Position numbers and translations under genes: made by a program
Notes under the pieces: generated by a model
What the model was told of the DNA's origin: nothing
Seen by the model: the letters and a program-made list of their open reading frames with translations, nothing else
Databases searched by the model: none
Shown here: in pieces, positions 8,484 through 15,602 of the stretch
Position numbering within the stretch: the first letter of the stretch is position 1
Layout of the letters: each line of letters opens with the position of its first letter
Source of the DNA: Bacteroidaceae bacterium
Lineage (GTDB): Bacteria; Bacteroidota; Bacteroidia; Bacteroidales; Bacteroidaceae
Length of the DNA: 42,596 bases
NCBI GenBank assembly: GCA_024398665.1
Contig: JAKSIS010000016.1
Coordinates: forward strand, 1-42,596
Direction: 5' to 3'

Positions 8484-9395
8484 ATGAGTTCTTTATCACA
8501 AATATCCGTCACTCCGTCGAACATTCAGAGCATGGTTCCGTCTGGAGCATCGGTAGGAATAGGTGACGATTTCTTCATTTCCCGACTTTCGGACATGCCG
8601 CAGTACAATCACCTGCAGTACCCTTTCCGCATTGACTGCTACCTTGCGGCATATTGCGTGGAGGGCAGCATGGACTGCACCGTGAACCTGACCAGATACC
8701 ATCTCACATCAGGTACGCTGCTGCTCATAACCCCCGGAAACATTGCCACAATAACCCGCCCCGAACAGCAGGTCGGCCGCCAGCGCTTCACCATAATCTG
8801 CGCATCGGCTGACTTCATATCAAGTGTAGGGATTGACCCCACCAAATTCCTGGTGGAGGTCATTGAAGTTCTGCGCGACCCATGCATGCACCTGTCTGCC
8901 GATGAAGCTGACCTGCTGCGCAAGTACGTGGACCTTCTTCTTGACATTGCGCGCGCCCAGCCGCATTTCACGCGCGAATGCATAGGGGGCCTGATATCAT
9001 CGGTCTTCTACCAGTTTGCCGGATTCCTGGCCGCATCGAAGAAGAAGGAGGACCTGGAATCGCCGCTGCGCACCACACGGCAGCGCCAGATGCTGGAACA
9101 GTTCATGAAACTGGCTATAACTGACCATGCACGGGAACATCTTGTGGGCTATTATGCTGACAAGCTGTGCGTGACGCCCAAATACCTTTCCAAGATAATA
9201 AAGGAATGCAGCGGCCGCTCCGTACCGGACTGGCTGAACGAACTGCTCATTCTGGATGCCAAGAACATGCTGCGCCATTCCAACATGACTATAAAGGAGA
9301 TATCGGCCCAGCTGAATTTCCCCAGCCAGTCATTCTTCTTCCGCTTCTTCAAGAACCACACCGGCATGACTCCCACCCAGTACCGTGCCGAATGA
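8484..9395 (+). CDS. AraC-family transcriptional regulator
   Basis: 303 residues from the ATG at 8484. The N-terminal part (about 20-190) is a cupin-like ligand-binding domain (YCVEGSMDCTVNLTRYHLTSGTLLLITPGN). The C-terminal 100 residues contain the two helix-turn-helix motifs of AraC proteins: YYADKLCVTPKYLSKIIKE and the signature MTIKEISAQLNFPSQSFFFRFFKNHTGMTPTQYR. It is transcribed divergently from the efflux operon, from which it is separated by about 160 bases, so local control of that operon and autoregulation are likely (inference). Ends in a shared bidirectional terminator. Confidence 0.93.
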   Translation: MSSLSQISVTPSNIQSMVPSGASVGIGDDFFISRLSDMPQYNHLQYPFRIDCYLAAYCVEGSMDCTVNLTRYHLTSGTLLLITPGNIATITRPEQQVGRQRFTIICASADFISSVGIDPTKFLVEVIEVLRDPCMHLSADEADLLRKYVDLLLDIARAQPHFTRECIGGLISSVFYQFAGFLAASKKKEDLESPLRTTRQRQMLEQFMKLAITDHAREHLVGYYADKLCVTPKYLSKIIKECSGRSVPDWLNELLILDAKNMLRHSNMTIKEISAQLNFPSQSFFFRFFKNHTGMTPTQYRAE

Positions 9396-9400
9396 TATGA

Positions 9401-9455
9401 CTTGCAGGAAAAAGAAACGGCCGGAGACTTTCCGGCCGTTTCTTTTTCCTGCAAG
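9401..9455. terminator. Bidirectional terminator, perfect 25-bp stem
   Basis: Two 25-base arms (9401-9425 and 9431-9455) are exact inverted repeats around the five-base loop GACTT. Each arm carries an A-rich or T-rich run next to a GGCCGG core, so both strands show stem plus U-run. It lies between the convergent AraC-type gene and the DUF3237 gene and can terminate both. Confidence 0.88.
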
Positions 9456-9461
9456 CTGCAA

Positions 9462-9980
9462 TCACTTGACCTTCCACACATCAAGAGTGATTCCGCCGCC
9501 TGCACCGAAACCGGGCTGGCACAGGAACAGGCAGTCGTTCATCCAGGCGTACTTGCTGTCCTTGGGGGCCTCGAACTTGGGGGCGCAGCGGAAATACATG
9601 CCGCCCTGTCCCATCTTGATTATACCGGTGTTGCGGACATGAATGCTTACACCGTCATCAGTGCGTATGCAGTAGATTGCCTCAACTTCATTGCGGCCGT
9701 CAACTGCCAGCTGGTAGTCAGCACCGCCGGGAAGGACCTCACCCTTAATGTCCGGACCCTCAAATGTGCCGCCGGTAATGGGAATGACGGTACGTGTGCC
9801 CTTGCCGTTGTCACCGACAGTGAAAGCCTGGCCCAGGCTTACGTTCAGGCGTACCACATATTCCAGTTCAGGAGCCTTGGGTTCCGCGTTCTGCTGCTGC
9901 GGGGCGCCGAATCCGAACTGTGCGTTTGCATTCACTGAAAACATGGCGGCTACTGCTGCCATAAAAAGGATCTTCTTCAT
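9462..9980 (-). CDS. Secreted DUF3237-family protein
   Basis: 172 residues with a signal peptide (MKKILFMAAVAAMFSVNANAQ). The mature part holds the DUF3237 hallmark: IPITGGTFEGPDIKGEVLPG, then GADYQL and YCIRTDDGVSIHVRNTG. Proteins of this family are small beta-barrels of unknown function. The frame stays open far upstream (to 10544) but that extension overlaps the divergent permease and lies upstream of the promoter box, so the start is the ATG at 9980. A short FGFGAPQQQNAEPKAP stretch follows the signal peptide. Monocistronic. Confidence 0.85.
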   Translation of the reverse strand: MKKILFMAAVAAMFSVNANAQFGFGAPQQQNAEPKAPELEYVVRLNVSLGQAFTVGDNGKGTRTVIPITGGTFEGPDIKGEVLPGGADYQLAVDGRNEVEAIYCIRTDDGVSIHVRNTGIIKMGQGGMYFRCAPKFEAPKDSKYAWMNDCLFLCQPGFGAGGGITLDVWKVK

Positions 9981-10019: not shown

Positions 10020-10052
10020 AAAAATCCTGTCGGTTTCCATGACATCTTTCAC

Positions 10053-10060
10053 TAACTTTG
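10053..10060 (+). promoter_or_regulatory. -7 box immediately before the FecCD-type permease
   Basis: TAACTTTG ends nine bases before the ATG at 10069. If transcription starts about five bases after the box, as usual in Bacteroidetes, the leader is only about four bases. The alternative start at 10039 lies upstream of the box and is therefore disfavoured. Confidence 0.5.
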
Positions 10061-10068
10061 TAATCGGT

Positions 10069-11082
10069 ATGAAGTCGAAAAACCTATGCATTCTGCTGTC
10101 AGCGGCAATCCTGCTGCTGTTCATGTGCTGCCTGTGCCTTGGCACGGTGAGCATTCCCACCGGCAGTGTATTCAGGTCGCTTTTTGCCGGCGGATGCGGC
10201 AACGGAAGCTGGGATTTCATAATAAGGCAGTCACGCCTGCCGTCAGCCATAACCGCCATGCTGGCGGGATCGGCCCTGGCGGCGTCAGGTCTCATGCTGC
10301 AGACTGCATTCCGCAATCCTCTGGCCGGCCCTGACATACTGGGCATAAACGGCGGCGCCGGACTTGGAGTGGCGCTGGTCATGATGGCGTTCGGTGGCAA
10401 TCTGACTGTAGGCAGCATGACTCTGGGGGCATCGGTCTCAGTCATTGCGGGCGCATTTGCCGGTGCTCTGGCCGTGACCGGACTTATACTGCTGCTGTCA
10501 TCCAGACTGCGCAACCCGGTCATGCTGCTCATTGCGGGCATCATGGTCAGTTATCTGACATCGGCTGCAATTTCACTGCTCAATTTTTTTTCGACGGCCG
10601 AGGGCGTCCATTCATACACCATGTGGGGCATGGGCAATTTCGGCGGGGTGACACTGAGCCGCCTGCCGGTGCTGTGCATGTTCACAGCAGCGGGTCTGGT
10701 CATTGCGGTGCTGCTCATAAAGCCCCTGAACGCACTGCTGCTGGGTGACATGTACGCACAGAACCTTGGCGTGAACCTGAAACGCACGCGCAACTGGCTG
10801 CTTCTGTCAACCAGCCTGCTTGTGGCCATCACCACTGCGTTCTGCGGTCCCGTATCCTTTATCGGACTTGCCGTGCCGCATATTGCCCGCCTGCTTCTGA
10901 AGTCAGGCAACCACCGCAGTCTCATGCCCGTTACCATTCTTTGCGGGGCGGCCATAGCCCTGGCATGCAATCTGCTCAGCTCACTGCCGGGTGACCGCGG
11001 GCTTATACCGCTGAACGCTATCACGCCCGTCATAGGGGCTCCCGTAATACTTTATGTCCTACTCAAACAACGTCACAACTAG
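10069..11082 (+). CDS. FecCD-family (BtuC-like) ABC transporter permease
   Basis: 337 residues, about ten membrane helices. The diagnostic FecCD segment is present: AGSALAASGLMLQTAFRNPLAGPDILGINGGAGLG (residues about 65-100), and the later GPVSFIGLAVPHIARLL signature is also there. The family imports iron-siderophore, haem or cobalamin complexes as a homodimer with an ATPase and a binding protein. Neither partner is encoded nearby; instead the next gene, one base away (TAG-C-ATG), is an exported esterase. The substrate is therefore unclear. The start is set by the promoter box and by the hydrophobic N-terminus. Confidence 0.92.
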   Translation: MKSKNLCILLSAAILLLFMCCLCLGTVSIPTGSVFRSLFAGGCGNGSWDFIIRQSRLPSAITAMLAGSALAASGLMLQTAFRNPLAGPDILGINGGAGLGVALVMMAFGGNLTVGSMTLGASVSVIAGAFAGALAVTGLILLLSSRLRNPVMLLIAGIMVSYLTSAAISLLNFFSTAEGVHSYTMWGMGNFGGVTLSRLPVLCMFTAAGLVIAVLLIKPLNALLLGDMYAQNLGVNLKRTRNWLLLSTSLLVAITTAFCGPVSFIGLAVPHIARLLLKSGNHRSLMPVTILCGAAIALACNLLSSLPGDRGLIPLNAITPVIGAPVILYVLLKQRHN

Positions 11083-11083
11083 C

Positions 11084-12250
11084 ATGAAAAGACTGTTATC
11101 AGCTGTCCTTATGACAGCCGCATGCTGCATTTCAGCAGCCCAGGGATTCCAGCGCGAACAGTTCCCGGAAGGGTCCTATTCACCGGTCACGAACATCAAC
11201 CGCGGTTCATACCCGCGTGTTCTGCAGGACGGAAGCGTAATGTTCCGCGTCAGTGCGCCGCGCGCGCAGCAGGTCCAGATTGACCTGGGCGGCAGGAAAT
11301 ATGACATGGAGAAGGGAGACAACGGATCCTGGAGCGTGACTACCGCAGCGCAGGTGCCAGGTTTCCATTATTACAGCCTGATTGTTGACGGCGTTTCAAC
11401 AGCTGACCCCGCCAGCCGCACGTTCTACGGCTGCAGCCGCTGGTCCAGCGCCATTGAGATTCCGGAAAAGGGCATGGACGACTTCGAGACTCAGGACGTT
11501 CCGCACGGTCAGGTGCGCATGGTGGAATATTTCTCAAAGGTTGAAAACGGCTGGCGTCCGCTCATGGTATACACTCCGGCCGGATATGATGAGGGCAAGG
11601 CCGATTATCCCGTAGTGTACATTCAGCACGGCGGAGGCGAAGACCACCGCGGCTGGATTGAGCAGGGCCGCACCGCACAGATTATGGACAACCTGATAGC
11701 TCAGGGCAAGGCCGTTCCCATGATTGTTGTATGTACGAACAGCAACGTGCAGGCTGCCGGCGGCGCACGCGGCGGCGGGGGATACAGCTGGCAGGGCATG
11801 CAGACATTCCGCAGCGAGATGGTGGACAACGTGATTCCTTTCGTTGAAAAGACATACAGGGTGAAGAAGGACCGCAGGTACCGCGCCATGTGCGGCCTGT
11901 CAATGGGCGGCGGCCAGTCGTTCTACATAGGCCTGCGTGACCCCGAAGTCTTTGCTAGTGTGGGCGTGTTCTCGACAGGCATGTTCGGCGGCATTTCCGG
12001 CGCATCGGACTTTGATTTGGAAAAGGAAGTCCCCGGCATGATTTCAGACACGAAGAACTTCAACAGGCAGTTCGACGTGTTCTTCCTGAGCTGCGGCGAA
12101 CAGGACCCGCGCATTGAGTACACCCGCACCATTGTGGGCAAGATGCGTGACGCCGGCGTTGAAGTCAGGTTCAACTCCTACCCCGGCGACCACGAGTGGC
12201 AGGTATGGCGCAAGTCCCTGCACGAATTCGCGCAGTATCTGTTCAAGTGA
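11084..12250 (+). CDS. Exported CE1/PF00756-type esterase
   Basis: 388 residues with a signal peptide (MKRLLSAVLMTAACCISAAQ). Residues about 50-130 form an early-set (Ig-like) domain (VMFRVSAPRAQQVQIDLGG ... PGFHYYSLIVDG), followed by the alpha/beta-hydrolase: VVYIQHGGGEDHRGW, nucleophile Ser273 in GLSMGGGQS, Asp in SCGEQDPRIE and His in GDHEWQVWR. Known relatives are feruloyl and acetylxylan esterases and, more distantly, enterochelin esterases. It is homologous to the esterase at 32341 but has only a short Gly-rich loop (AAGGARGGGG) where that one has a long insert. The pairing with a FecCD permease allows a siderophore-ester role as well as a xylan one (inference). Confidence 0.87.
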   Translation: MKRLLSAVLMTAACCISAAQGFQREQFPEGSYSPVTNINRGSYPRVLQDGSVMFRVSAPRAQQVQIDLGGRKYDMEKGDNGSWSVTTAAQVPGFHYYSLIVDGVSTADPASRTFYGCSRWSSAIEIPEKGMDDFETQDVPHGQVRMVEYFSKVENGWRPLMVYTPAGYDEGKADYPVVYIQHGGGEDHRGWIEQGRTAQIMDNLIAQGKAVPMIVVCTNSNVQAAGGARGGGGYSWQGMQTFRSEMVDNVIPFVEKTYRVKKDRRYRAMCGLSMGGGQSFYIGLRDPEVFASVGVFSTGMFGGISGASDFDLEKEVPGMISDTKNFNRQFDVFFLSCGEQDPRIEYTRTIVGKMRDAGVEVRFNSYPGDHEWQVWRKSLHEFAQYLFK

Positions 12251-12266
12251 GCAGGAGCGGCTTTTC

Positions 12267-12406
12267 GCCAAAGTGTCCCGCAACAGTATCGGCAAGAGTA
12301 CCTTTTGAACCGGTTCACTGTGGGACATGCGTTCATTTTGAGGGTATGTAACGCAAAATACGTACGCACCTGCGTTATGGAGACGGTGCGTGCGGGACAC
12401 GTTGGC
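12267..12406. repeat. 140-bp inverted-repeat element, left copy
   Basis: The element starts GCCAAAGTGTCCCGC and ends GCGGGACACGTTGGC, so its ends are terminal inverted repeats (14 of 15 pairs). It is about 81% identical over all 140 bases to the reverse complement of 13476-13615 (113 of 140 by hand alignment, no gaps). Near the right end a hairpin ACGCACC/GGTGCGT encloses a 14-base loop. It sits 16 bases after the esterase stop and 12 bases after the stop of the convergent exporter gene. It has no coding capacity and looks MITE-like or REP-like. Confidence 0.85.
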
Positions 12407-12418
12407 AAGTGCGGAATT

Positions 12419-13453
12419 TCAGCAGAACAGTAAAGTAACGTATCCGACCAGAAGTGCTACTGCTACATTGACCAGTTTGGCTTTAAGGAAACTGCTGCGG
12501 CTTTCGGCCAGCAACGGCAGTGAGGCATGCCCGTCCTGACTGATACAGCTTGCCAGAAGAACAGGCAACGGTACCACACCTGCTGCATACAGGGATACAA
12601 AGACAAGATGAGGTCCTGATTCAGGAATGATGCCCACAACTGCAGCCAACAATATCATGAGCACAACATTGTCACTTATCCAAAGTGATATGTCAAATTT
12701 TGCCATAAGCAGACCAAGTACCAGCAGTGTTCCAAAAGCCCAGAGGAAAATGCTTGGCAGGTGGTGGCAGACAATATGTTCCCACAGGTGCTCTTCAATG
12801 AAATGGTCCTTTGCAAACAGCAGGACGGCAAGAACAATCAGACTGAAGGAAGCGAACATCCAGTACATCCACTCTTCGGACAGCAGGTTGAATCCTCCGC
12901 CTGATGTATCTTCCGGCTCTTCCAGGATTCCACTTACAAGTGCACTTATAAAAATCAGTACGCCGCAGAACATGAGCAGACGTTTCCATCCGAAATGACG
13001 TTTTTCGTGGTGCTCATGCTGACAGGGCTGATCTTCCTCATGAACATGCATGGAATGGCATCCGTCATAACGGTGTTGGAACAGGTCGACCAGAAGCCCT
13101 GTGGCTATGGCAACGCCAAACAGAATCAGGAAAATCCATGCCGACTTGTCGGGAAACATTGCCAACATGACAAACGCTTCATCACCCGATGACGCAATCA
13201 TCATGCTGATCAGTGCACCGAAACTGATAAGTCCGTGATTATACAGTGAGACCGATGCAAAACCGCCCATGCATCCTGGAATGGAGCCAAGCAATGCTGA
13301 CAGCAGCACCTGCCCTAAGCGGTGGTTGCGCAATCCCTGGAAGACATGTCCCTGAGACCGGACATTGAAAACCTCAATGAGCATCATCATGGTTGTGACC
13401 AGCCCAGTGATTAGGATTGCAGTGCGCAGTGAGTCAATCAGAATCTGAAGCAT
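12419..13453 (-). CDS. Predicted 10-TM heavy-metal (manganese-type) exporter
   Basis: 344 residues, about ten hydrophobic helices in two halves. A His-rich cytoplasmic loop (MHVHEEDQPCQHEHHEKRHF, residues about 133-152) joins them. Paired motifs SIPGCMGGFASVSLYNHGLISFGALISMMIASSGDEAF in the first half and GIIPESGPHLVFVSLYAAGVVPLPVLLASCISQDGHA in the second fit the ArsP_2 / putative manganese transporter family. The start is the ATG at 13453, six bases after a TACCTTTG box. Three 60-base lines counted by hand average 46% G+C, against 68% for one line in the neighbouring operon. The whole gene is framed by two inverted 140-base repeats. Confidence 0.82.
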   Translation of the reverse strand: MLQILIDSLRTAILITGLVTTMMMLIEVFNVRSQGHVFQGLRNHRLGQVLLSALLGSIPGCMGGFASVSLYNHGLISFGALISMMIASSGDEAFVMLAMFPDKSAWIFLILFGVAIATGLLVDLFQHRYDGCHSMHVHEEDQPCQHEHHEKRHFGWKRLLMFCGVLIFISALVSGILEEPEDTSGGGFNLLSEEWMYWMFASFSLIVLAVLLFAKDHFIEEHLWEHIVCHHLPSIFLWAFGTLLVLGLLMAKFDISLWISDNVVLMILLAAVVGIIPESGPHLVFVSLYAAGVVPLPVLLASCISQDGHASLPLLAESRSSFLKAKLVNVAVALLVGYVTLLFC

Positions 13454-13458
13454 GTCCG

Positions 13459-13466
13459 CAAAGGTA
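13459..13466 (-). promoter_or_regulatory. -7 box six bases before the metal exporter ATG
   Basis: TACCTTTG on the minus strand; its last base is six bases upstream of the ATG at 13453, predicting a leaderless or nearly leaderless mRNA. It lies just inside (gene-proximal to) the right 140-base element, so the upstream promoter half would fall in the element. Confidence 0.5.
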
Positions 13467-13475
13467 ATGATTTTT

Positions 13476-13615
13476 GCCAACGTGTCCCGCAAGCACCATC
13501 CCCATAACGCAGGTGCTTACGTATTTTGCGTTACACACCCTCAAAATAAGGGTATGTCCCGCAACGGAGCGGTTAAGATGGTACTCCCGCGGGCTTTAAT
13601 GCGGGACACGTTGGC
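13476..13615. repeat. 140-bp inverted-repeat element, right copy
   Basis: Ends are GCCAACGTGTCCCGCA and TGCGGGACACGTTGGC, a perfect 16-bp terminal inverted repeat. The element is the same length as the left copy and lies in the opposite orientation. Its gene-proximal hairpin reads AAGCACC/GGTGCTT on the minus strand where the left copy has ACGCACC/GGTGCGT. It starts 22 bases upstream of the exporter ATG and ends 9 bases short of the stop of the reactivation-domain gene, so it may also terminate the threonine operon. Confidence 0.85.
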
Positions 13616-13624
13616 TAAACAAAA

Positions 13625-14296
13625 TCATTTCCTGCGTTTGTAGCACATCTTCATGTCGCAGATTCCGCATGTATAGGGAAGGTAGCGGACATCGGGGCCC
13701 ACACCTATCACGCCGCTGACTGACTTGACGGGCAGCATGAGGCAGGAATCGGTAAGTTCAATGCCGCAGGGGTTCTTCTCCTCAAAAAGGCTGAACAGCC
13801 CGGGCTGCTGGGATACCGGCCAGCCGCAGTAACCGGGGCTGAAACGGTTTGTGCGGTGCAGGCCGTCAGCGTCAAGCTGCTCCTGCAGCACCTTTTCCAT
13901 ATAGTCAGCCGCAGACTCTACAATCTGGCTTCCTATGCAGTCCATGACGTACGTCTCATACACTCCGTCACGGCGCTTCACGGCATCGGCCCACTGGAAA
14001 TAGCCGGCCCCCACAGTCGCAACGAATACGATGAAACGCTGCGAACCGCGCAGCTGGCGGCATATTATACGGCCGGCACCAAAAGTGACACCGCCCAGGG
14101 TGAGAGTATCTTCAGCAAGCTGCCCTTCAACTTCAATGTACTTGAACTCCGGACGCAGGAAAAGTGCGGCCTCCTCAAGCAGATGTTCAGTGGTGCTCAT
14201 GGTCGCAGCATCGGGCCGGGACGTCTTGAAGCCCATGGCCGAATAGATTTCAGCCACAGGAATGTCAAGCAAGTTCAAGTCCAGCTGCCGCCACAT
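13625..14296 (-). CDS. Stand-alone methionine synthase reactivation-domain protein
   Basis: 223 residues. The motif RFSPGYCGWPVSQQPGLFSLF corresponds to the RxSPGY-x-x-WP segment of the C-terminal activation domain of cobalamin-dependent methionine synthase (MetH), where S-adenosylmethionine binds for reductive reactivation. The final residues (YTCGICDMKMCYKRRK) are Cys-rich. It is a free protein of domain size, not fused to a MetH core. The start is the ATG at 14296, one base after the thrC stop, with AGGAG ten bases upstream; a TTG at 14314 is in frame but overlaps thrC. Last gene of the threonine operon. Confidence 0.85.
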   Translation of the reverse strand: MWRQLDLNLLDIPVAEIYSAMGFKTSRPDAATMSTTEHLLEEAALFLRPEFKYIEVEGQLAEDTLTLGGVTFGAGRIICRQLRGSQRFIVFVATVGAGYFQWADAVKRRDGVYETYVMDCIGSQIVESAADYMEKVLQEQLDADGLHRTNRFSPGYCGWPVSQQPGLFSLFEEKNPCGIELTDSCLMLPVKSVSGVIGVGPDVRYLPYTCGICDMKMCYKRRK

Positions 14297-14297
14297 G

Positions 14298-15602
14298 TCA
14301 ACGGCTCTCCTCAAAAAGGAAGTTGCGGAAATCAGCGTAGTCCTTTGACAGTCCGATGCTCTGCTTGGTGCCTTTCATGAAGGCCTGCAGACGTGCGGGA
14401 ATCCCAACGTCACCGCCGGTGATGGAATCGACCTTCTCCTTGAACTTGGCGGGATGGGCGGTCTCAAGGAACACGCCGCACTGGCCCGGTTCAAGCTGTT
14501 CCCTCAGGGCGCGGTAGCCGCATGCTCCGTGCGGGTCAAGCAGATACCCGGTACGGGCGTAGCACTCCTTCAGCGTTTCAGCAATCTGGCTGTCGCTGTA
14601 TGTCGCGCCGCCTATATGGCCGGCAATGTCAGCATGGCTGCCGCCGTACAGGGCCAGCACGCGTGCAAAGTTGCTGGGATCGCCCACGTCCATGGCGTTG
14701 GCAAGGGTCTGGACTGACGGTCGGGGACTGTAAACGCCGGTCTGCAGATATTTGTAGAATATGTCATTGGCGTTGTTGGCGGCAATGAAACGTTTCACGG
14801 GCAGGCCCATCTTCCAGCCGAACAGTCCGGCCGTGATGTTGCCGAAATTACCGCTGGGAACGCAGATCACAAGATCATCGGCCTTGTCAATACGTTTCAT
14901 CTGGGCGTATGCGTTGAAATAGTAGAATGCCTGCGGCAGGAAACGGGCCACGTTGATTGAATTGGCCGATGTCAGTTTCATGCGGCCGTTCAGTTCAGCG
15001 TCCATGAAGGCGTTCTTGACCAGAGCCTGGCAGTCATCGAACACGCCGTCAATTTCAAGGGCGGTGATGTTCTGTCCCAGTGTGGTGAACTGGCATTCCT
15101 GGATGGGGCTTACCTTGCCTTTGGGATAGAGCACGTACACGTGCACGCCTGGAACGCCCAGGAACCCGTTGGCAACGGCGCTGCCGGTATCACCCGATGT
15201 GGCTACCAGCACATTGACCAGCTGCTTCTCATTCCTGTTGAAATACCCCAGCAGACGGGCCATGAAGCGTGCGCCCACGTCCTTGAAGGCCAGTGTGGGA
15301 CCATGGAACAGTTCCAGTGAGTATATATTCTCATCGACCTTGACGCATGGCGTCTCAAAAGCCAGGGTGTCATATACTATCTTCTTCAGGTCTTCCGCGG
15401 GAATATCCTCACCGAAAAAGGCATCGGCCACGCGGTAGGACATTTCCTGAAATGTCATGCTGTCTATGTTTTCAAAGAAGTCCCTGTCAAGACTCTTCAG
15501 TGTTTCAGGCATGTACAGACCGCGGTCAGGAGCCAGTCCCTTCACGACGGCCTCGCTTAGCGTCACATCAGGCGCCTTGTGGTTCGTGCTGTAGTATTTC
15601 AT
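14298..15602 (-). CDS. thrC: Threonine synthase
   Basis: 434 residues. It opens with MKYYSTNHKAPDVTLSEAVVKGLAPDRGLYMPE, the usual N-terminus of the long ThrC class, and carries the PLP-lysine motif HGPTLAFKDVGARF (residues about 105-120) and the phosphate-binding SGNFGNITAGL. It converts O-phosphohomoserine to threonine in the cytoplasm. Its ATG overlaps the stop of the upstream apgM-like gene by four bases (ATGA), consistent with tight translational coupling in the thrA-apgM-thrC operon. Confidence 0.96.
   Translation of the reverse strand: MKYYSTNHKAPDVTLSEAVVKGLAPDRGLYMPETLKSLDRDFFENIDSMTFQEMSYRVADAFFGEDIPAEDLKKIVYDTLAFETPCVKVDENIYSLELFHGPTLAFKDVGARFMARLLGYFNRNEKQLVNVLVATSGDTGSAVANGFLGVPGVHVYVLYPKGKVSPIQECQFTTLGQNITALEIDGVFDDCQALVKNAFMDAELNGRMKLTSANSINVARFLPQAFYYFNAYAQMKRIDKADDLVICVPSGNFGNITAGLFGWKMGLPVKRFIAANNANDIFYKYLQTGVYSPRPSVQTLANAMDVGDPSNFARVLALYGGSHADIAGHIGGATYSDSQIAETLKECYARTGYLLDPHGACGYRALREQLEPGQCGVFLETAHPAKFKEKVDSITGGDVGIPARLQAFMKGTKQSIGLSKDYADFRNFLFEESR

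Follow-up and report, generated by a model that had tools for sequence, protein, structure and literature searches.

Double-palindrome repeats resembling REPINs around a flipped exporter gene in an uncultured rumen Bacteroidaceae bacterium, and their candidate RAYT-like transposase

Why does a single exporter gene lie between two 140-base elements of opposite orientation? The question is raised by a stretch of 42,596 nucleotides, hereafter the window, from an uncultured rumen bacterium of the Bacteroidaceae (its own genome is G000; other G-numbers denote genomes and L-numbers loci). An earlier account made from the letters alone, hereafter the sequence-only reading, described two MITE-like, non-autonomous elements with terminal repeats, about 81% identical without gaps and enclosing one complete gene, and proposed that this gene had been captured as a mobile cassette. 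Coordinates and alignments agree with the description. E1 spans 12267-12406 (minus strand, 121.7 bits with covariance model R1), from GCCAAA at 12267 to GTTGGC at 12406, and E2, inverted with respect to it, spans 13476-13615 (plus strand, 123.6 bits); an ungapped alignment over 146 nt gives 81% complementarity (80.7% by global alignment), their longest common exact run is 18 bp, and their terminal arms are complementary to 94% over 16 nt in E1 and 95% over 20 nt in E2. The only complete ORF between them is the exporter gene (12419-13453, minus strand, ATG at 13453 and end at 12419), whose 344-aa product matches PF11449 ArsP_2 (E 3.3e-37). E1 lies 16 bp past the stop of a putative esterase gene (PF00756; 11054-12250, plus strand) and 12 bp past that of the exporter, while E2 lies 22 bp from the exporter start and 9 bp from the end of its other neighbour, encoding a methionine synthase B12-activation domain protein (PF02965; 13625-14314, minus strand), here the MetH-activation gene. 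On the far side of the esterase is a membrane protein gene (10039-11082, plus strand), followed by synteny and a tree, which is putatively of the FecCD/BtuC type and which we call FecCD. The low G+C that had been hand-counted for the exporter (46% against 68% in a neighbouring line) is real but smaller: the whole gene has 49.1%, versus 57.6% and 56.7% in the flanking genes, and its orthologues average 54% in the 14 relatives measured.

The internal structure of E1 and E2 is regular. The element consists of two palindromes of ~53 bp, each bounded by inverted 9-base cores of the TGTCCCRCA type, so that E1 has four cores (12274-12282, 12319-12327, 12347-12355 and 12391-12399), as does E2 (13483-13491, 13527-13535, 13555-13563 and 13600-13608). 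Across 40 elements the layout is core, 35-36-base module, core, 19-20-base centre, core, 35-36-base module, core, the whole enclosed by GCCAAA/TTTGGC ends that dominate the family. With one mismatch allowed, all 48 extracted elements had cores at positions 8, 52-53, 80-82 and 124-126 in the order forward, reverse, forward, reverse; because matching ends were a condition of extraction, the information lies in the inner positions alone. The sequence TGTCCCGCA occurs six times in the window against 0.67 expected, and the elements fold better than shuffled sequences (z -5.2 to -6.7). Modules look reassorted among copies, and copy-specific base-pair covariation is weak: a copy-specific pairing of module arms was discarded, with equally good permutations in 2702 of 20000 cases for module A and 105 of 20000 for module B, and none of the remaining three arm pairings was better than permuted.

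The repeat is not unique to this spot. A pattern search recovered 10 intact copies in G000, with 127-128 bp between 10-base cores, and none with the reversed control pattern. The family was placed in 26 of the 37 genus genomes by a covariance model built on 40 non-redundant elements, as well as by a search for both GCCAAMGTGTCCCGCA ends with one mismatch allowed; by the model, the other 11 lack the element. This model matches most copies on both strands, so that copy numbers are about half of the matches: ~13 in G000 (26 strand-matches) and ~33 each in G002 (67 strand-matches) and G006, with 20 strand-matches in G017. A strict pattern requiring AAAGTGTCCC ends found the family, among 393 genomes of the order, in G000 only, a draw that held no other member of the genus and is thus silent on divergent relatives; a previous pattern, which could not detect the TGTCCCACA variant, gave matches in 4 of 61 genomes (G000 included), all of the genus. 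Six pattern matches in viral contigs included none with the element layout by eye. No target-site duplication was seen by eye in the flanks of 10 copies, as had been noted for the window, and the places compared yielded no clean empty insertion site, one copy being truncated and one place being occupied by another repeat family. The elements are dispersed in genome and genus without a gene of their own, which upholds their description as MITE-like and non-autonomous. In otherwise near-identical DNA, the orthologous elements at L247 (11250-11388) and L256 (11052-11190) differ in one hairpin loop, AGAACGTAT versus AGAATACGT, which looks like a small inversion.

Copies sit between ORFs and near gene 3' ends, at a median of 19 bp from 56 gene ends versus 76.5 bp from 42 gene starts; these distances come from an ORF-based heuristic applied to the 49 of 53 distinct elements with enough flank, and where ORFs were cut or over-long, it produced many spurious distances of 0-2 to starts. 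Neighbouring copies are clustered and similar to each other. Closeness to stop codons and stable folds, together with orthologous positions in G002 and G006, would suit structures maintained by the host at 3' ends, such as terminators or RNA-stabilising hairpins, instead of mobile repeats. We regard this explanation as highly improbable, given that copies flank a transposase-like gene (see below), that 11 genomes of the genus lack them, that covariation is slight, and that a search of positions 11000-15000 of the window against Rfam, up to an E of 1, matched nothing.

The history of the exporter was addressed by comparing 30 loci of the genus, the window included. The exporter is co-directional with the esterase or FecCD gene in 27 (one of which, L212, holds a fragmentary gene), has no detectable neighbour in two, and points the opposite way in one, the window. 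The esterase orthologue lies immediately upstream of the exporter and in its direction in many relatives, and the FecCD orthologue is found upstream of the esterase or the exporter. Among the relatives with this neighbourhood, L052 is the most divergent, and its genes are arranged as thrC, MetH-activation, DUF, FecCD, exporter; two inversions are needed to relate it to the window, and two of the three breakpoints are E1 and E2. The third, between an AraC-type gene and the DUF gene at 9395-9462, has a short hairpin with T/A runs and no copy of the 140-bp family. The direction of the exporter relative to the MetH-activation gene is the same as at L052, and our claim is accordingly limited to a flip against the operon partners. 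The window exporter groups with L052 in an unrooted tree of 24 sequences (support 0.96), and so does the window FecCD in one of 23 (support 0.998); the esterase tree, which has no L052 sequence, was poorly resolved. Since the exporter runs in the direction of esterase or FecCD in 27 of the 29 relatives, and since it branches as FecCD does, it is, to judge from gene order and trees, a resident gene flipped against its operon partners and not captured cargo. As E1 and E2 share exact runs of at most 18 bp, an erroneous inversion of the segment during short-read assembly is hardly to be expected.

The locus in relatives had been named by the sequence-only reading as a place to look, and there the exporter mostly stands without repeats: 26 of the 29 relatives have no copy in the surroundings searched (~1.5 kb a side or less). 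In G002, G006 and G012 one copy lies directly 3' of an unflipped exporter, and G006 and G012 have a second copy ~4 kb off, past the DUF-FecCD-esterase genes.

Flipped gene orders are found at other inverted pairs. When 26 neighbouring pairs of copies were classed, 9 were inverted, 15 direct and 2 unclear; the nine represent eight loci, with the GH43 locus counted in both species, and L169 and L309 were not comparable. A flipped segment is present in four of the six inverted pairs compared, in two of these four against an element-free contig of a relative. G000 contig C1 was compared with G031 on the prediction that genes framed by inverted copies would be flipped. With a GH43 gene as anchor, the AmiA gene and the tRNA-editing gene of C1 both run against their direction in G031; each of the two has its own inverted pair around it, and the G031 contig, of 10.6 kb, has no element; this contig ends just beyond, and the comparison rests on the left-hand GH43 anchor. 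G002 and G017 differ by the inversion of a 3.25-kb block of three genes (GH43) whose limits are exactly two inverted elements, with an identity of 91.5% inside and 83% on both flanks; the G017 pair has a 105-bp exact run, which makes an assembly error less easy to exclude there. The two unflipped pairs are that of G010, whose genes are oriented with the right-hand neighbour as in G006 (the side compared), and that on G006 contig C20, which encloses DUF-FecCD-esterase-exporter, a segment placed as in G002 with respect to both flanks. Between G002 and G006, 13 of 27 breakpoints are no more than 100 bp away from the end of an element in one genome or the other (12 of 25 after dropping two places seen twice), versus a baseline of 3.4% of G006 bases; the excess is overstated, because the stretches were chosen around elements and the baseline takes all DNA of one genome and not just the intergenic part, and because both sides of a single event enter the count without being independent.

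These comparisons bear on three further explanations. An unrelated inversion could have flipped the exporter, with the repeats arriving later and preferring gaps 3' of genes. The preference for 3' ends, the copy directly 3' of the unflipped exporter in three genomes, the clustering of similar neighbouring copies and the two inverted pairs around unflipped genes are all in line with such a coincidence, which nevertheless appears unlikely in view of the four flipped segments among six pairs, two of them set against an element-free contig. A programmed switch, in which the elements are sites of an invertase-like reaction toggling single genes, would account for their inverted orientation, for the single genes between copies and for an exporter start so close to E2; yet paired copies are non-identical (81-96%) and the enclosed genes are unrelated, many being metabolic or of unknown function, so that we think it very improbable.

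Finally, the elements might be the ends of a mobile unit of 1349 bp, with the exporter excised and reinserted, or imported. At L190 and L189 (G006 and G002) the exporter and its downstream element are 97% identical and the flanks ~90%, a sign of exchange of this segment between the two species. Together with the GH43 block, this makes two cases in which identity is higher inside than outside, which supports exchange; the same pattern between species also fits transfer and counts in favour of a composite cassette, as do the breakpoints near element ends. On the other hand, the window exporter occupies its ancestral locus, branching with L052 like FecCD, and G000 has a single exporter match. Residency in the genus led us to discard the captured cassette or composite transposon as the main reading, and we consider it rather improbable.

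The window has no transposase of the RAYT-like type, in agreement with the sequence-only reading, which had advised a search elsewhere for a transposase gene with the same repeats. Such a gene was found as a 302-aa ORF between two elements in G007. Close homologues (at least 66% identity) are present in G004, G006, G007, G011, G012, G015 and G026, and, split, on G000 contig C1, and element copies lie on both sides in all eight genomes; in G004 the left ends of the flanking copies are degenerate, and in G011 the nearest full copy on one side is ~660 bp off. The G000 gene, between two elements at L021 (7233-8166), is in two pieces. The family had no Pfam match above cut-off and no NCBIfam match. 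An H-P-H (H55-P-H57) and a Y-xxx-Q (Y113-xxx-Q117) are invariant in 12 of 12 sequences; by comparison with IS608, we interpret them as the Y1-nuclease motifs HUH and Y. Profile comparison joins this family (A2) to distant homologues (A4; 99.9%, E 7.5e-32) and these to Pfam-positive RAYTs (A3; 99.1%, E 9.8e-19), while the direct comparison with Pfam-type RAYTs was weak (probability 5.7, P 0.0067). A PDB profile search gave seven matches, the best at E 0.35, which we took as chance and not as a relative, and PHROGs gave weak matches only. The chain of profiles and the motifs identify the candidate partner as a putative Y1 HUH protein.

A close homologue was not found in 18 of the 26 element-bearing genomes, including G002 and G017 (given as 100% complete), so present-day copies need none in the same genome. 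Pfam-type Y1_Tnp genes, present in 23 of the 37 genomes, were set aside as partners, as element ends were at none of the loci examined (12 loci and a few longer stretches). The 20 proteins encoded between copies included no transposase by Pfam, and two of them (L172 and L243) belong to the unrecognised RAYT-like family.

On balance, we favour the explanation that E1 and E2 are REPIN-like repeats spread by the matching RAYT-like transposase and that the resident exporter was flipped via their inverted copies, and we judge it probable. These non-autonomous double-palindrome repeats of ~140 bp would have been spread through the genus by the Y1 (HUH) protein. The presumed role of this protein is to recognise core sequences in single-stranded hairpins and then to duplicate or transfer the element, for the most part into the gaps that follow gene 3' ends. 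Inverted pairs would then act as recombination joints, where the enclosed segment is turned, or swapped for a relative's oppositely oriented copy, and the exporter would thereby have come to point away from its former operon partners. What the comparisons establish is the repeat family, its position next to the RAYT-like gene and the flipped gene orders; movement by the transposase and flipping by recombination between copies are what we infer from them, and the flip may also reflect transposase action or replacement by the segment of a relative. Several results count against this explanation, namely the two unflipped inverted pairs, the 18 genomes without a close transposase homologue and the split gene of G000, the weak direct profile link to Pfam-type RAYTs, the motifs, which differ from those usual in class 2, the lack of a PDB match above chance, and the second inversion needed relative to L052, with a third breakpoint that has no element. 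Moreover, at 81% identity and with an exact run of 18 bp, E1 and E2 would be a poor substrate for homologous recombination, and the two segments that resemble each other between species more than their flanks do are compatible with transfer as well.

How do these repeats compare with known systems? MITEs of DDE transposons, such as the Correia elements, are ~100-150 bp long, have terminal inverted repeats and lie near genes; the gene found beside the present elements is of Y1 type, not DDE, and no target-site duplication was visible by eye at the copies inspected. Integron attC sites are structured, of similar size and placed between genes, with core sites GTTRRRY/RYYYAAC, whereas the window family ends in TTTGGC/GCCAAA and has copies in both orientations. 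Unlike the cargo of a composite transposon, the exporter is not absent from the locus in relatives, 27 of 29 having it beside esterase or FecCD. REPINs, as described by Bertels and Rainey (2011, PMC3116915), are short extragenic palindromes in inverted doublets, non-autonomous and beside a Y1 transposase gene, with different families accompanying different transposases within one genome, traits that recur here. The window repeat is likewise extragenic and palindromic, with several to many copies per genome; it is an inverted doublet of palindromic units, hairpin-forming by predicted folds, and its copies flank the RAYT-like gene in eight of eight close homologues. It differs in its length of ~140 bp, in its four cores in two full palindromes, in the HPH and Y-xxx-Q motifs of its partner, and in lying beside flipped genes. 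As to the GT[AG]G foot of REPIN palindromes, a GTGG can be read within TGTGGGACA but is, by eye, not common to the sister families of the 48-57% homologues.

The class 2 signatures given in PMC6006769 are Y---NP and an HuH residue L, V, I, F, Y or M, whereas all 12 sequences here have Y-xxx-Q and HPH, at a motif distance of ~56 residues versus a median of 82 in that paper. In its TnpA-REP subclass 2.6, Y1 proteins of Bacteroidetes have atypical secondary structures on their flanks, further copies of which are found in the same genome. Our Bacteroidales Y1-type protein, with structured flanking repeats that also have copies at other places, resembles this subclass, and the two may overlap. TIRYTs/TIRtrons are RAYT-like genes with flanking inverted repeats, some double palindromic and some repeated in the genome, which the available text of PMC3733652 does not describe as fixed four-core units of ~140 bp nor link to gene flips. 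In the literature covered, which included few subscription papers, we found no description of such 140-bp elements in Bacteroidales or of gene flips framed by REPINs.

REPINs have been studied mostly in gammaproteobacteria, and to our knowledge it is an open question why cells keep their transposases. The present elements look REPIN-like and non-autonomous and are of a type that we did not find described, with an incomplete membership of the group, as their proteins depart from the class 2 signature and their mobilisation is deduced. They bring to light a longer repeat with four cores, which exists as parallel families in uncultured rumen Bacteroidales and is accompanied by proteins unnamed by Pfam or NCBIfam, and their repeated link with flipped genes offers a concrete route by which small repeats could reshape operons. 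A broader proposal, which we hold only tentatively and think doubtful, is that repeats and RAYT-like proteins form a genus-wide system whose palindromic joints would make resident genes orientation-free cassettes, flipped or exchanged between species, with parallel families each having its own transposase.

As regards these parallel families, six of seven homologues of 48-57% identity are flanked on either side by a different repeat, 133-178 bp long; these sister repeats all start with GCCAA and have paired, different cores by eye. The seventh (L316) has no flanking repeat in 752 bp upstream and ~1.5 kb downstream, and a 9-base end pattern found the window family beside none of the seven, bar one lone match in L322. 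A second family, with GCCATACTTG cores in the forward-reverse-forward-reverse layout of the window family, has copies at L036 (6030-6153), L043 (6027), L188 (2530), L191 (2527) and L256 (6931-7055 and 14750-14873), and in several relatives it takes the place immediately 3' of the exporter, where G002, G006 and G012 have a copy of the window family. A third, of the GGACGCTCC type, was observed at L255 (5417-5563, 9416-9542 and 10541-10683). Inverted GGACGCTCC-type copies bound a 3.8-kb block of G002 that is inverted relative to G006, and none was seen at the G006 breakpoints of that inversion. Very divergent RAYT-like homologues (20-22% identity) were also observed at L318-L320, L323, L325, L328 and L330, some of them flanked by long arrays of other repeats.
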